In this document: positions 30,373 to 38,368 of the stretch, piece by piece
How the letters are laid out: each line of letters opens with the position of its first letter
Numbering within the stretch: the stretch's first letter is position 1
NCBI GenBank assembly: GCA_944322555.1
Contig: CALUPJ010000015.1
Coordinates: 1 to 41,038 of the forward strand
Length of the DNA: 41,038 bases
DNA from: Candidatus Gastranaerophilales bacterium
Lineage (GTDB): Bacteria > Cyanobacteriota > Vampirovibrionia > Gastranaerophilales > Gastranaerophilaceae
Reading direction: 5' to 3'
Program-made: the position numbers and the translations under genes
The notes under the pieces: generated by a model
Seen by the model: the letters and a program-made list of their open reading frames with translations, nothing else
Told to the model about the DNA's origin: nothing
Databases searched by the model: none

Positions 30373-31544
30373 CAAAACCTCTTTCACAACTAGTTGAGAA
30401 CATAAAACCTTCAGGTATAAGAAAGTTTTTTGATTTAGTGAGTGAAATGCGCGATGTTATATCTCTGGGAGTCGGAGAACCGGATTTTGATACGCCGTGG
30501 CATATAAGAGATGAGGGAATTTATGCATTAGAGAAAGGGAAAACTTTTTACACTTCCAATTCAGGTCTAAAAGAATTAAGAAATGAGATATGCGGTTATT
30601 TAGAAAGACGTCAGGGAATAAGTTATAATCCGGATACTGAAGTTATAGTAACTGTCGGCGGTTCAGAAGCTATCGATATCGGACTTCGTGCCCTGATTAA
30701 TCCCGGTGACGAAGTTATAATTCCGCAGCCTTCATATGTTTCATATGAGCCATGTGCCGTATTAGCAGGAGCAAGACCCGTAATAATCAATCTAAAAGCC
30801 GAAAATGAGTTTCGTTTGACTGCAGAAGAATTAAAATCAGTAATAACTCCCAATACAAAAATTTTAATTTTACCGTACCCGAATAACCCTACAGGGGCGA
30901 TAATGGAACAAAAAGATCTCGAGTCTCTTGCAGAAATTATTATAGAAAACGATATTTATGTAATGTCGGATGAAATATACTCCGAGCTTACATATAAAGG
31001 CGAACACGTATCGATTGCATCTTTAAAAGGTATGAAAGAACGCACAATTCTTATAAACGGTTTTTCAAAGTCATACGCTATGACTGGCTGGAGATTGGGG
31101 TATGCTTGTGCACCGAAGGAAATTATAAAACAAATGACAAAAATTCATCAGTTTGCAATAATGTGCGCTCCGACAACAAGTCAGTATGCCGGAACCGAAG
31201 CCTTAAGAAACGGTGATGAAGATGTTAAAATAATGCGTAATGCATATAATCAGCGCAGAAGATTTCTTATAGATGCCTTCAAGAAGATAGGGCTTGAATG
31301 CTTTGAACCTTATGGAGCTTTTTATGTTTTTCCGTGTATAAAAGAGTTTGGAATGACAAGTGAGGAGTTTGCAACAAAATTTCTTGAAGAAGAGAATGTT
31401 GCCGTAATACCCGGAAATGCCTTCGGGAAAAGCGGTGAAGGTTTTATCAGGATTTCTTACGCATATTCTCTTGAAAATTTGAAAATAGCAATAGAACGCT
31501 TAAGTCGTTTTATAAATAACTTAAGAAGCAAGCAGACTAAATAA
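30369..31544 (+). CDS. Class I/II PLP-dependent aminotransferase
   Basis: Fold-type I aspartate/aromatic aminotransferase family. SLGVGEPDFDTPWHIRDEG is the N-terminal substrate loop; ILPYPNNPTGAIM and MSDEIYSELTY hold the PLP Asn and Asp. INGFSKSYAMTGWRLGY contains the Schiff-base Lys, and EGFIRISYAYSLENL the carboxylate-binding Arg. The 391-residue length is typical. Coupled to the AsnC regulator by ATGA. The last 24 nt overlap tail-to-tail with the chromate-transporter gene on the other strand. The amino-acid substrate cannot be told by eye. Confidence 0.93.
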   Translation: MTKPLSQLVENIKPSGIRKFFDLVSEMRDVISLGVGEPDFDTPWHIRDEGIYALEKGKTFYTSNSGLKELRNEICGYLERRQGISYNPDTEVIVTVGGSEAIDIGLRALINPGDEVIIPQPSYVSYEPCAVLAGARPVIINLKAENEFRLTAEELKSVITPNTKILILPYPNNPTGAIMEQKDLESLAEIIIENDIYVMSDEIYSELTYKGEHVSIASLKGMKERTILINGFSKSYAMTGWRLGYACAPKEIIKQMTKIHQFAIMCAPTTSQYAGTEALRNGDEDVKIMRNAYNQRRRFLIDAFKKIGLECFEPYGAFYVFPCIKEFGMTSEEFATKFLEEENVAVIPGNAFGKSGEGFIRISYAYSLENLKIAIERLSRFINNLRSKQTK

Positions 31545-32075
31545 TCCTGTTTTTCCGGCTAATGCCGATAATACCCCGATTATTGCGGCTATTAGTATAT
31601 AAAAAAGCGGATCGCGTTTTGATTTCCAGCTAAAAATAAGCATAGCCCCAATCAGAACTAATGCCTTTATATCATGAATCTCCGGTTTTAAAAGTCCAAT
31701 GGCAACAGATGTAAGAAGTCCGCAGCTTATGGGTTTTAGAGTCTGTATAAGCGATTTTACATAGAAATTATCACTGAATTTTCTAAGCAGTTTTGAAACA
31801 ATAATAACCAAAAACAGAGACGGCAGCATTTCTGCAATTGTCGCGAGAGCTGAACCGAAAATCCCTGCACTCTTCATACCTGCATATGTTGCAACATTAA
31901 TTCCCACAGGTCCGGGAGTAATTGATGCTACAGCAACCATTTGAGTCAATTCGTCCAGAGTGTACCAGTTATAAACCTGCGATATGTGGTATAAAAACGG
32001 AATAGTTGCATATCCGCCGCCGAATGAAAACATTCCGATTTTGAAAAATTCCCAGAATAAATAGAGGTAAATCAT
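31521..32075 (-). CDS. Chromate-transporter family protein, second half-size subunit
   Basis: 184-residue membrane protein of the CHR family. IGMFSFGGGYATIPFLYHIS is the first glycine-rich helix, VASITPGPVGINVATYAGMK the conserved P-G-P-x-G motif, and several hydrophobic helices follow. Such half-size proteins usually work as pairs. It overlaps the first subunit by 4 nt and converges on the aminotransferase with a 24-nt overlap, so neither operon has a separate terminator here. Substrate is uncertain; chromate or sulfate transport is only known for some relatives. Confidence 0.85.
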   Translation of the reverse strand: MIYLYLFWEFFKIGMFSFGGGYATIPFLYHISQVYNWYTLDELTQMVAVASITPGPVGINVATYAGMKSAGIFGSALATIAEMLPSLFLVIIVSKLLRKFSDNFYVKSLIQTLKPISCGLLTSVAIGLLKPEIHDIKALVLIGAMLIFSWKSKRDPLFYILIAAIIGVLSALAGKTGLFSLLAS

Positions 32076-32626
32076 TTTTTAGCCTCCGCTATTCTTTTGT
32101 ATCCGACTCCTATTAGGGAAAATAGCAGTATTGTTTGTATTGGTGACAGTTTGAAAATTAATAATGCCAGTAGTGTCAAGATAAAAATCGTATAAAAAAA
32201 GATACCTCTTTGAGATTTTTGCCACATTTCCCTTACCGTTAATACAATAAGTGCAATAACTGCTGCTCCCACACCCCACAGTGCTCCCTGAATATAACTG
32301 TTTTCGGTTAGCGAACCTATAATAGACGCCAGCAGGACTATACACCAGAATGGCATAAATGTAACCCCAAGCATTGCCGTTACAGCACCCCATTTGCCGC
32401 GGAGCTTATATCCGATAAACATTGACATATTGGCAGCAATAATGCCCGGAAGCGATTGTGCCAGAGCAAAATAGTCTACTATATCATCATGTGATACCAG
32501 TTTTCTCTTATCAACGAATTCATTTATCATTATCGGGAGTATGACATAACCGCCGCCAAGCAGTATAGCCCCTATTTTTGTGAAAATTAAAAATAACTCA
32601 AATAGTGACATATCTTCTTTTTCCAC
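32072..32626 (-). CDS. Chromate-transporter family protein, first half-size subunit
   Basis: 184 residues. LFLIFTKIGAILLGGGYVIL is the N-terminal glycine-rich helix, FALAQSLPGIIAANMSMFIG the family signature, and three or four more helices follow. The start is GTG at 32626, with GGGAG 8 nt upstream, overlapping the end of bioB by 29 nt; an ATG at 32611 has a much weaker site. Its pairing with the next gene gives the common two-gene short CHR arrangement. Cotranscription with bioB is not obviously functional. Confidence 0.85.
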   Translation of the reverse strand: MEKEDMSLFELFLIFTKIGAILLGGGYVILPIMINEFVDKRKLVSHDDIVDYFALAQSLPGIIAANMSMFIGYKLRGKWGAVTAMLGVTFMPFWCIVLLASIIGSLTENSYIQGALWGVGAAVIALIVLTVREMWQKSQRGIFFYTIFILTLLALLIFKLSPIQTILLFSLIGVGYKRIAEAKK

Positions 32627-33533: not shown

Positions 33534-34226
33534 TTAATATCCTACGCTTAATCCTGCACACAAATTTATCGATTGTCCCGTTACACCTTTTGCCTCTTCG
33601 GAAATCAGATATTTTATCATACCTGCAATTTCGCCGGGTGAAACAAACCTTCTTTGCGGAATGCAGCTTATAATTTCCTCTTTACTAAACATCCCGACGG
33701 AAGAATTGCCCATATCAGTATCAACCCAGCCGGGGTTTATAGTATTTACGGTAATACCGAATTCTGCAAGTTCAAGTGCAAGTGATTTGGCAGCCCCGAT
33801 AAGTCCTGCTTTTGATGCGGAATAAATACTTGCTCCTGCTTCTCCCATAACACCACTTATAGAGCCTATATTAACAATTCTGCCCCATTTTTTTTCTTTC
33901 ATATAAGGAACGGCTCTCGAAATCAAATACAAAGGCGCTTCAAGATTTGTTTTTAGAAGTTGTTCAATTTGGGAAATTTCCATTGCCTCAATTGAAGAAT
34001 AAATATATTCACCTGCATTATTAATAAGCACATCAATTTTATTTTTTTCTATATAGTCCCCGAGTATTTCAATATTCTTGGATAAATCACAAATACAATA
34101 ATTTCTATATTGCTTAAGCGGTTCTTCATTTCTTGCCGATACAAAAACATTGTGTCCCAAATTAAGCATATTATCTGCTATTGCTTTTCCAATCCCTCTG
34201 CTGGCGCCTGTTATTAATATATTCAT
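33534..34226 (-). CDS. SDR-family oxidoreductase (FabG-like)
   Basis: Classical short-chain dehydrogenase: LITGASRGIGKAIADNM is the cofactor loop, DVLINNAGEYIYS the NNAG motif, and IVNIGSISGVMGEAGASIYS with YSASKAG gives the Ser-Tyr-Lys triad. INPGWVDTDM follows. At 230 residues it is slightly shorter than FabG. It sits directly before bioB, so a 3-oxoacyl-ACP reductase feeding pimeloyl-ACP synthesis is plausible but unproven; many SDRs look alike. No Shine-Dalgarno; TATAAT ends 6 nt before the ATG, indicating a leaderless mRNA. Confidence 0.85.
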   Translation of the reverse strand: MNILITGASRGIGKAIADNMLNLGHNVFVSARNEEPLKQYRNYCICDLSKNIEILGDYIEKNKIDVLINNAGEYIYSSIEAMEISQIEQLLKTNLEAPLYLISRAVPYMKEKKWGRIVNIGSISGVMGEAGASIYSASKAGLIGAAKSLALELAEFGITVNTINPGWVDTDMGNSSVGMFSKEEIISCIPQRRFVSPGEIAGMIKYLISEEAKGVTGQSINLCAGLSVGY

Positions 34227-34282: not shown

Positions 34283-34310
34283 TTGACAAAATCAAGATAG
34301 TGATTATAAT
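34283..34310 (+). promoter_or_regulatory. Consensus promoter of the RHH-like/NifX-like gene
   Basis: Perfect TTGACA, a 16-nt spacer and perfect TATAAT, ending 8 nt before the ATG at 34319. Strong and effectively leaderless for the full-length product. Confidence 0.75.
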
Positions 34311-34318
34311 ATTTAATT

Positions 34319-34945
34319 ATGGATAATAGAAATTTATTTTGTAATAAAAATTGGGGCGGAAAACGAATGAATGCAGGCAGAAAACGTACATGCCTGAACA
34401 AAATTCCGTTTAACCGTCGGATTAATGAAAATATTTTAAAGATTTTACGCGAATACGCTCATTCGCATAACATTACCGAAACAGAAGCTTTAGAGAGTGC
34501 AATTCTGCTTCAATCAAATGTCGATAAACTGAAAGGAGACAAAAACATGAAAATAGCTATTCCTACGGAGAATGAAAAACTTTGTTCGCACTTCGGCCAT
34601 TCGGAATCTTTTACTTTTGTTGATGTTAATCCAGAAACAAAGGAAATTTTGAATATTGAAACAAAAGTACCGGAAGAAGGCATTAGCTGCCAAAGCGCCG
34701 GCTGGATATCAGAGCAGGGAGCAAATATTGTTCTTGCAGGCGGAATGGGAGCCCGCCCGCTTGGTATTTTTAGTCAAAATGGTGTTAAAGTAGTTTCGGG
34801 CTGCCCGGAACTTCCTGTAAAAGAACTAGTAGAACAATATCTGGCTTCTGCTCTCCAAACAGGTGAAAATATCTGCGGCGGCGAGCATCACGAATGCCAT
34901 GGTCATCATCACAACCATGCTCATCATCACTGCCATAACCATTAA
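34319..34945 (+). CDS. RHH-like DNA-binding segment fused to a NifX/NifB-C-type cofactor-binding domain with His-rich tail
   Basis: 208 residues in three parts. Residues 1-76: basic NWGGKRMNAGRKRTCLNKIP and then RINENILKILREYAHSHNIT, like a ribbon-helix-helix or AT-hook-type DNA-binding unit. Residues 77-185: MKIAIPTENEKLCSHFGHSE, a dinitrogenase iron-molybdenum-cofactor-binding (NifX/NifB C-terminal) fold with the HFG motif, IVLAGGMGARPLGIF and a later Cys (SGCPELP). Residues 186-208: His/Cys-rich HECHGHHHNHAHHHCHNH, likely metal-binding. The ATG at 34319 has no Shine-Dalgarno, but AAAGGAG at 34532 lies 8 nt before the in-frame ATG at 34547, so a second product lacking the first part is likely. 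Annotating only the short form is the main alternative. Confidence 0.75.
   Translation: MDNRNLFCNKNWGGKRMNAGRKRTCLNKIPFNRRINENILKILREYAHSHNITETEALESAILLQSNVDKLKGDKNMKIAIPTENEKLCSHFGHSESFTFVDVNPETKEILNIETKVPEEGISCQSAGWISEQGANIVLAGGMGARPLGIFSQNGVKVVSGCPELPVKELVEQYLASALQTGENICGGEHHECHGHHHNHAHHHCHNH
34532..34549 (+). promoter_or_regulatory. Internal ribosome binding site and start codon for the NifX-like domain alone
   Basis: AAAGGAG, 8 nt, ATG: one of the best Shine-Dalgarno sites in the window, located inside an open frame exactly at the boundary between the DNA-binding-like and NifX-like parts. Confidence 0.65.
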
Positions 34946-34959
34946 CGTACAAACAAAAA

Positions 34960-34985
34960 GGCACAGCCCATATACCGACTGTGCC
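34960..34985 (-). terminator. Terminator of the minus-strand gene at 35007-35477
   Basis: 7-bp stem GGCACAG/CTGTGCC with a 12-nt loop. On the minus strand it is followed by TTTTTGTTTG, 21 nt past the stop. On the plus strand it is followed by A's, so it is not a good terminator in that direction. Confidence 0.75.
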
Positions 34986-35006: not shown

Positions 35007-35477
35007 CTAGCTCATGAATTGCGCTTGATAAGCACGATAGGAAATAGGCGCTTCCTGAACCTCCGGTTTGTTGGATAATCCGAAAGCCCTTGATGCTTCT
35101 GACCTTAGACCTGCGAAATATGTCATGGCCTGTCCATCGATAGCACTCTGGCTCAATAACTGAATTGCATTGTTAAACGCAGCGTAATCTTTTTCGTAGT
35201 CACCCGTTGCCTGAATACCTATCTGAGCACATAAGCTTGCCCAGGGGACGACTTTTTGATTGTTCTGATTATCAATCTGCTGTTGAACCTGCTTCGAGTA
35301 CTCCTCGTACATCGCTTCATTCAGTTCTTTTAAATCATCGGTTGTACCCGTCGGAGTAATATCAAAATCATCAAACGCACGCTCCAGCGCCCTGGCATTT
35401 GTAGGAACCCTGCCGAGGTAAGAGTAAATGTTTGCGCTTGTATAGGTATATACTCCGTTTACTGTGAAGTTTGACAT
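35007..35477 (-). CDS. Unknown soluble protein, about 156 residues
   Basis: The ATG at 35477 is chosen because GAGGTG lies 6 nt before it; the frame extends 3 codons further to a GTG with no ribosome site. Sequence features: Ser/Tyr/Thr-rich N-terminus SNFTVNGVYTYTSANIYSYL, then a helical, Gln/Asn-rich middle (EEYSKQVQQQIDNQNNQK) and a C-terminal half with GDYEKDYAAFNNAIQLLSQS. No signal peptide, membrane segment or recognised family. It has its own AT-rich promoter region and a clean terminator, so it is a single-gene transcript. The TTATATAT...TATAAGAGG leader resembles those of the small genes at 20337 and 35778. Confidence 0.75.
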   Translation of the reverse strand: MSNFTVNGVYTYTSANIYSYLGRVPTNARALERAFDDFDITPTGTTDDLKELNEAMYEEYSKQVQQQIDNQNNQKVVPWASLCAQIGIQATGDYEKDYAAFNNAIQLLSQSAIDGQAMTYFAGLRSEASRAFGLSNKPEVQEAPISYRAYQAQFMS

Positions 35478-35541
35478 GATACACACCTCTTATATGATAT
35501 ATAATATATATCGGCATTTTTTCTAAAAACTTTAGCGTTTT

Positions 35542-37222: not shown

Positions 37223-38368
37223 ATGAGGAAGAGGTTAGCTGTAATTTTACTAAGTATATTCCTGATGAACACGGCACTTGCTGATGTCCCGTTTCAAGGT
37301 CATGCAGAGTTTGATGATGAGTATACGGAGTTAGATAAAAAACTTTTTACAGGTAAAAAGGAGACTCTGGAAAAAAGAGACGTTATTGAAATGACTGTTT
37401 CGCAAGTTTTAGATGGCTCTTTTTCACTGGAGGGAGATGAGTTTTTTGCGGAAGTAACTTCCGATGTAATTGGTGATAAAGGTGTAATTATACCCAAAGG
37501 CACAGTTGCGCACGGAACAATTACTCAGACGAGTGAAGCTAAACGGCTCGGTCGAGACGGGCATCTAAGTTTAAGCTTTGATTATCTGGTTACGCCGGAT
37601 GGACGGGAAATTCCGATAGAAGGGCAAATGTCAACGAAGCTTCATCCGATAAAAGCCGCGACTAAGATTATAGCGACCGATGTCGGTTATACCGCAGTCG
37701 GCGGTCTTGCCGGAGGACTATTTGCATTACAGGCATTAGGGATAGAAGCGGCAATAGCATCTCAGGGATATACGCTGGCAGGCGGAGCTGCACTGGGAAG
37801 TACTGTCGGGCTTGGTATGTCTTTATACAGAAAAGGGAAAAATGTTTTAATTGCGCCGGGTGATGAAATAAAAGTCAGAATTTTGTCTGATGTGGAACTT
37901 CCCGTATACAGGGAAGATGCTTTAAAACAGGAAGAGCTTAAATATCCCGGACTTGATATCAGAATTGTTAATATTTTGTACGAAAAAGATCCGTTCGGGG
38001 AGGTTAATACAATTACGCTTTCGCTATCTATTTCTAATATGTCAAAAAAAGCTTTCTCCGGCATGGATTTAGCTCTTGTAAACGATTATAATGCGGTATT
38101 TAACCCTTCGATATTCGGTGATACAAAGCTTTTGTTTTCGCAATTGAAACCCGGAGACAGATTTGCAGGAAAAATTTCTTTTGCTGTAAATAATGTAAAA
38201 CAATCTTTCTGGCTGGTTGTTAATGACAGAGCCACAAACAAACCAATTGCAAAAATATCTCTTGATAACGCATATAAAAAAGTTTCAAAAGATGTAAAAA
38301 AGAGAAACGATAAAATGCGCAAGAAAAAGAAAAACTATTATAAAGAAGACTCTCCGTTTGATTTATAA
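37223..38368 (+). CDS. Secreted or envelope protein of unknown function
   Basis: 381 residues. Signal peptide MRKRLAVILLSIFLMNTALA, cleaved before DVPFQG. A domain of about residues 50-145 contains GDKGVIIPKGTVAHGTITQT and GHLSLSFDYLVTPDGREIPI, a pattern seen in TrbI/VirB10-like and surface-antigen-type beta domains. A Gly/Ala-rich hydrophobic segment follows (AVGGLAGGLFALQALGIEAA, about residues 155-195), possibly membrane-inserting. A second beta-rich domain with NTITLSLSISNMSKKAFSGM comes next, and the C-terminus is very basic (KKRNDKMRKKKKNY). Family not recognised. No Shine-Dalgarno; the -10 box is 6 nt before the ATG. Confidence 0.8.
   Translation: MRKRLAVILLSIFLMNTALADVPFQGHAEFDDEYTELDKKLFTGKKETLEKRDVIEMTVSQVLDGSFSLEGDEFFAEVTSDVIGDKGVIIPKGTVAHGTITQTSEAKRLGRDGHLSLSFDYLVTPDGREIPIEGQMSTKLHPIKAATKIIATDVGYTAVGGLAGGLFALQALGIEAAIASQGYTLAGGAALGSTVGLGMSLYRKGKNVLIAPGDEIKVRILSDVELPVYREDALKQEELKYPGLDIRIVNILYEKDPFGEVNTITLSLSISNMSKKAFSGMDLALVNDYNAVFNPSIFGDTKLLFSQLKPGDRFAGKISFAVNNVKQSFWLVVNDRATNKPIAKISLDNAYKKVSKDVKKRNDKMRKKKKNYYKEDSPFDL

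Follow-up and report, generated by a model that had tools for sequence, protein, structure and literature searches.

A probable ribbon–helix–helix–NifX fusion gene in Gastranaerophilales with a conserved candidate operator and two putative translation starts

Results

Structure of the locus

The window, the 41,038-nucleotide stretch of DNA analysed here, belongs to a Gastranaerophilales genome of 1.79 Mb in 142 contigs. Towards its end lies a gene (Table 1) that a sequence-only reading had described as a fusion of a DNA-binding segment and a NifX domain with two translation starts. That observation is correct and exceeds what chance would produce; the interpretation built on it is partly supported. 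The promoter is a perfect pair of boxes, TTGACA at 34283–34288 and TATAAT at 34305–34310, with a spacer of 16 nt, and the first ATG follows after 8 nt; no Shine–Dalgarno match was found before it. The AAAGGAG noted ahead of a second, in-frame ATG at the domain boundary is likewise present in the sequence, and the C-terminal tail reported as His-rich (CGGEHHECHGHHHNHAHHHCHNH) is rich in both Cys and His.

Table 1. Features of the RHH–NifX gene and its promoter region (positions in the window)
Feature	Position	Strand	Remarks
Candidate palindromic operator TTGATTATGTATTGACAAAATCAA, consensus TTGAWWWTGTATTGACAWWWTCAA	34272..34295		24 bp, centred on the -35 box
Sigma-70-type promoter TTGACA-16-TATAAT	34283..34310	+	-35 box within the operator
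Long form, RHH–NifX–His tail	34319..34945	+	208 aa; leaderless-type start; frame open in 65 distinct relatives
RHH-type DNA-binding segment, residues 12-66	34352..34516	+	predicted; WGGKR..AGRK basic arm and strand-helix-helix
Internal Shine–Dalgarno AAAGGAG	34532..34538	+	8 nt before in-frame ATG 34547
Short form, NifX-type domain and His-rich tail	34547..34945	+	132 aa, own ATG
NifX/Nitro_FeMo-Co domain, residues 77-180	34547..34858	+	PF02579; PDB sequence and fold matches
Cys/His-rich tail, residues 181-208	34859..34942	+	C186 invariant; H190, C193, H196 and C205 nearly invariant

The promoter spacer measures 16–17 nt in nearly all relatives. Two 12/12 promoter matches occur in 8 kb and total site counts stay at the level of shuffled sequence, so that the promoter match by itself says little and the conserved palindrome described below carries the argument. 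Since the + strand from 34313 to 34546 shows no promoter-like site of at least 9/12, one transcript is probably enough for both starts. In the terminator-like hairpin at 34960–34985 the T run lies on the - strand; read in that direction, the hairpin follows closely on the convergent gene at 35007–35486, and thus fits that gene rather than the RHH–NifX gene.

The two domains

The N-terminal segment taken alone gives no significant Pfam match and stays under the RHH thresholds. Its relatives match an Arc-like repressor (2.9e-5), a phage repressor (2.6e-6) and RHH_3 (3.2e-4), and the profile of this part matches 2kel, the RHH protein SvtR, at E 0.004. The predicted fold consists of two helices with a pLDDT of about 90, in a monomer model in which the DNA-contacting strand is not formed. 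Most of the top fold matches are RHH proteins—CopG, Arc, AmrZ, the RHH domain of PutA and several antitoxins—each of them weak when taken singly, the domain being so short (Foldseek E above 1, best Z 5.1). Taken together, this part is likely to be an RHH-type segment carrying a basic WGGKRxxAGRK arm.

The assignment of the C-terminal part is clearer: residues 85–175 match PF02579 at 65.6 bits against a cut-off of 26.3, and the structural matches PH0822, TM1816 and NifX (Foldseek E 7e-8 to 2e-5, probability 1.0) share its fold. ORP is among the PDB sequence and fold matches; the MrpORP model (NF041136) scores 101.5 bits, under its curated cut-off of 450. There is no Pfam match to NikR, the C-terminal domain being PF02579, and the gene is the only one with PF02579 found in its own genome. 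Cys89, His91, Cys124 and Cys162 are conserved within the NifX part. Membership in the NifX family together with the Cys/His-rich tails makes a metal or a metal cofactor the probable ligand.

The ratio pN/pS is 0.20 in the RHH part, 0.26 in the NifX part and 0.18 in the tail; the first two values indicate that the long frame is translated and that both parts are constrained.

Relatives and neighbouring genes

Within the genus, 26 of 65 genomes match the protein at E <= 0.001, three of them through weak antitoxin-like matches only. The N-terminal part is matched in 63 of 146 genomes sampled from the family, and in a phylum-wide sample the strong matches are confined to this family, with a single further one in a different family of the same order. 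The claimed fusion is strongly supported by this comparison: 65 distinct full-length, operator-bearing relatives encode RHH and NifX within a single reading frame, rather than as unlinked parts with an unconserved N-terminus. Several genera also possess a sister architecture, in which a Cys/His/Gly-rich stretch precedes the same RHH behind the same operator, without NifX; most of these Cys/His–RHH genes have a leader with a strong Shine–Dalgarno sequence, such as AAGGAGG. Two further genes, L105 and L165, have an extra linker that resembles the one in an antitoxin-like relative. Both partners of the RHH, judged from their residues, are rich in potential metal ligands.

The genes around these loci vary between relatives, which offers no clue to the ligand and suggests that the RHH–NifX gene works as a self-contained unit. 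The larger neighbour groups comprise only a downstream hydrolase-like gene at 11 loci and GGGtGRT beside eight Cys/His-type genes. The GGGtGRT (PF14057) gene adjoins the Cys/His–RHH genes in L100–L104, L108, L109 and L113. In the window itself, a pair of short chromate-transporter genes (PF02417) lies beside a biotin-synthase-like radical SAM gene on the - strand at 31521–32626.

A conserved palindrome over the -35 box

The palindrome around the -35 box was missed by the sequence-only reading. It is present in the upstream regions of 69 relatives, and nearly every intact upstream region carries the consensus. Across the 69 sequences the outer arms TTGA/TCAA and the inner arms TGT/ACA are near-invariant and match each other, a conservation owed in part to the -35 box itself; the WWW positions vary between A and T only, almost throughout, and conservation drops in the flanks. 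A search of the own genome that allowed up to three mismatches gave this site alone, and none that would speak for a wider regulon.

Site and domain occur together. Among the 146 family genomes, whose relatedness means that counts are not independent events, 58 of 60 operator sites precede this RHH domain and 58 of 61 RHH domain genes carry an operator; both are found in 56 genomes, the operator alone in one, the domain alone in one and neither in 88. The two sites without a detected domain (L166, L167) lie at contig ends that run directly into the start of the domain. The exceptions among the domain genes are two with a disrupted promoter region (L048, L168) and one with a degraded operator copy (L045). 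Many of the relatives are metagenome bins, in which assembly errors may account for a few damaged copies. None of the 13 antitoxin-like relatives has the operator. Cys/His–RHH genes without NifX carry it, so the operator follows the RHH domain and belongs to it, not to NifX.

The palindrome thus bears on the earlier proposal that the long form represses its own promoter. Autoregulation is strongly supported by a conserved palindromic site on the gene's own -35 box that travels with the RHH domain; binding of the long form to this candidate operator is a prediction. With the -35 box at the centre of the operator, occupancy should block RNA polymerase, and repression as such is what we infer from this placement.

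The exact 24-bp palindrome also occurs in a few viral contigs (IMG/VR; L158–L164), where unrelated genes follow it, in three distinct contexts. Viral spread of the operator was considered and rejected, given that these genes are unrelated; convergence of -35-centred operators is possible.

The first start

The leaderless character claimed for the first start finds support in the relatives, where in 61 of 66 cases the distance from the -10 box to the start codon is 6–9 nt, most often exactly 6, the point at which transcription should begin. The exceptions are L038 and L046, with a gap of 46–52 nt, and three relatives in which no in-frame start was found just after the -10 box. The residues immediately after the start are poorly conserved (pN/pS 0.77), which suggests that the position and not the peptide is kept. 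Both the spacing and the retention of position fit putative leaderless initiation at 34319.

In L093 and L094 the -10 box and the first ATG overlap, and the first start must arise differently there. Elsewhere in the window, the genes at 33534–34226 (-) and 37223–38368 (+) show TATAAT, 6 nt and ATG without a Shine–Dalgarno sequence (TATAATTAAGTTATG); leaderless starts may therefore be common in this organism.

The internal start

Only 2 of the 239 internal in-frame ATGs in the open reading frames of the window have a Shine–Dalgarno match of at least 6 nt, and 8 of 34 gene starts have one of at least 5 nt, which makes the 7-nt match inside this gene unusual for the window. The comparison of codons strongly supports the internal start proposed for NifX alone. 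Gly73, whose codon forms part of AAAGGAG, is written GGA in 64 of 65 relatives and GGG in one, against 5–35 of 65 for GGA in the other invariant Gly columns of the same genes, which serve as the control for relatedness. Its codon entropy of 0.11 is the lowest of 35 four-fold columns (median 1.54), and elsewhere the third positions are close to saturation with synonymous changes (pS 0.65–0.84). The following codon specifies Asp, Asn, Gly or Glu, each of which keeps the purine run. The start codon is ATG in 74 of 75 relatives and GTG in L093. These patterns indicate that selection at the DNA level maintains the internal AAAGGAG and the start codon after it; a chance Shine–Dalgarno match was rejected on the codon statistics of the other Gly columns. 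RNA structure masking the internal Shine–Dalgarno sequence was sought and none was found (z -0.06).

Two relatives, L021 and L022, encode NifX alone, with the same Shine–Dalgarno sequence and ATG behind a stop codon and no RHH in frame. L115, L168 and L048 have deletions in the operator or the RHH region and an intact internal Shine–Dalgarno sequence and NifX, by decay or assembly error. Another stand-alone NifX, in L020 (G062; match at 1531–1890, -), has a different Shine–Dalgarno sequence and lies just downstream of a tRNA-like gene.

Discussion

RHH proteins commonly bind their own promoter region and block transcription. On comparative evidence, we consider it quite probable that the gene forms an autorepressed module for binding a metal or cofactor, made as a repressor–effector and an effector-only form. 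A single transcript would begin at the first ATG or within about 2 nt of it, as the -10 spacing suggests. Leaderless initiation at 34319 would yield the long RHH–NifX–His protein, and initiation at AAAGGAG and the ATG at 34547 NifX–His alone. The long form would occupy the palindrome at the gene's own -35 box, blocking transcription; a metal or metal cofactor held by the NifX domain and the Cys/His tail would most likely alter this repression, so that protein is made when the ligand is plentiful. Most of the capacity for binding would come from the short form, which may also act as a competitor, either for the ligand or, by way of its NifX domain, for partners. The earlier suggestions of a metal as ligand, of a ligand effect on DNA binding and of buffering or competition by the short form enter this scheme as things we infer, as do the direction of the response and the relative amounts of the two forms.

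Evenly balanced between true and false, in our judgement, is a broader proposal, by which an RHH of the toxin–antitoxin type would have been recruited as a portable module of self-regulation, carrying its own operator and combining with metal-binding parts of different kinds. Where the partner is NifX, a single mRNA would give a scarce sensor–repressor from the leaderless start and an abundant binding protein from the internal Shine–Dalgarno sequence. If this is true, one gene makes up a complete homeostatic circuit.

The two starts invite simpler explanations. Only the long form might now be made, the internal Shine–Dalgarno sequence being a relic from a time when NifX was a gene of its own, and the stand-alone NifX genes that share this sequence show that it could predate the fusion; a relic would have decayed at the synonymous rates seen elsewhere, yet GGA persists, and the one relative that swaps ATG has GTG, also a start codon, which leaves this explanation unlikely. 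It is far less credible that only the short form functions, with the upstream stretch translated as a leader for the coupling or tuning of initiation. The strong Shine–Dalgarno sequence of the internal start and its lack at the first would suit such a leader, but the RHH part is under strong selection at the protein level, and the same RHH and operator exist without NifX. Hardly conceivable is a type II antitoxin: distant relatives of the N-terminal part adjoin Gp49/RelE-type toxins (L025, L106), but the gene's own neighbours encode an SDR and an unassigned protein, with no toxin gene adjoining; neighbours differ between relatives, no toxin was seen among the shared ones, and antitoxin-like relatives never carry the operator.

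What is sensed is a separate matter. NifX and ORP relatives carry metal–sulphur cofactors (PDB names and general knowledge). Hence the RHH may bind the operator while responding to the occupancy of NifX by an Fe–S or Mo/Cu cluster, to redox state or to a partner protein, and not to a metal ion, which the conserved Cys and His residues of the NifX part would accommodate. Against this, the sister architecture has no NifX but a Cys/His/Gly-rich stretch only, which speaks for metal ions themselves, and we regard the alternative as possible but rather doubtful.

Parts of this arrangement resemble known systems. NikR is a nickel regulator composed of an RHH and a metal-binding domain; as in NikR, an RHH is joined here to a small ligand-binding domain and a metal response is plausible, but a NifX fold replaces the NikR C-terminal domain, a Cys/His tail is present, and RHH–NifX regulates only itself as far as the sites show. 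The C-terminal domain is a clear member of the NifX/NafY/ORP family (PF02579), from which the gene departs by its RHH fusion and internal start. The nearest functional parallel is trifunctional PutA, an RHH domain fused to a proline-oxidising enzyme and an autogenous repressor (PMC5293562). Both have an N-terminal RHH fused to a functional domain and regulation of the own gene, which for RHH–NifX is putative; here, however, the partner is a NifX-type binding protein and not an enzyme, a second start gives an effector-only form, and a single operator at the own gene is combined with a leaderless-type start. For the short internal product the nearest parallel is the gene within a gene of Rpn (RpnL/RpnS, PMC10327210), where translation likewise begins internally to give a C-terminal part with a possible action on the full-length protein; in our case the full-length protein is a probable repressor and not a toxin, and the short form comprises an entire domain, preceded by a strong Shine–Dalgarno sequence of its own.

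Autogenous RHH fusions such as PutA and genes within genes are thus each known already. The combination of a leaderless-type repressor form, a Shine–Dalgarno-driven effector form and an operator seemingly confined to the own gene appears undescribed: no precedent was found in the open-licence literature searched, where NifX with ribbon-helix-helix returned unrelated papers only and Gastranaerophilales with leaderless none. Many genera of a gut lineage that is mostly uncultured retain it. Its operator is short and testable, the function of a NifX-type protein can be addressed directly in a genome that has no other PF02579 gene, and the context of the start codons would here set, in a natural example, how much repressor is made relative to effector.

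RHH antitoxins encoded beside Gp49/RelE-type toxins in the same bacteria share the WGGxRxxAGRK arm and the RHH-like segment at 31–37% identity; the RHH–NifX gene differs from them in having no toxin neighbour and in its operator, which they do not share.
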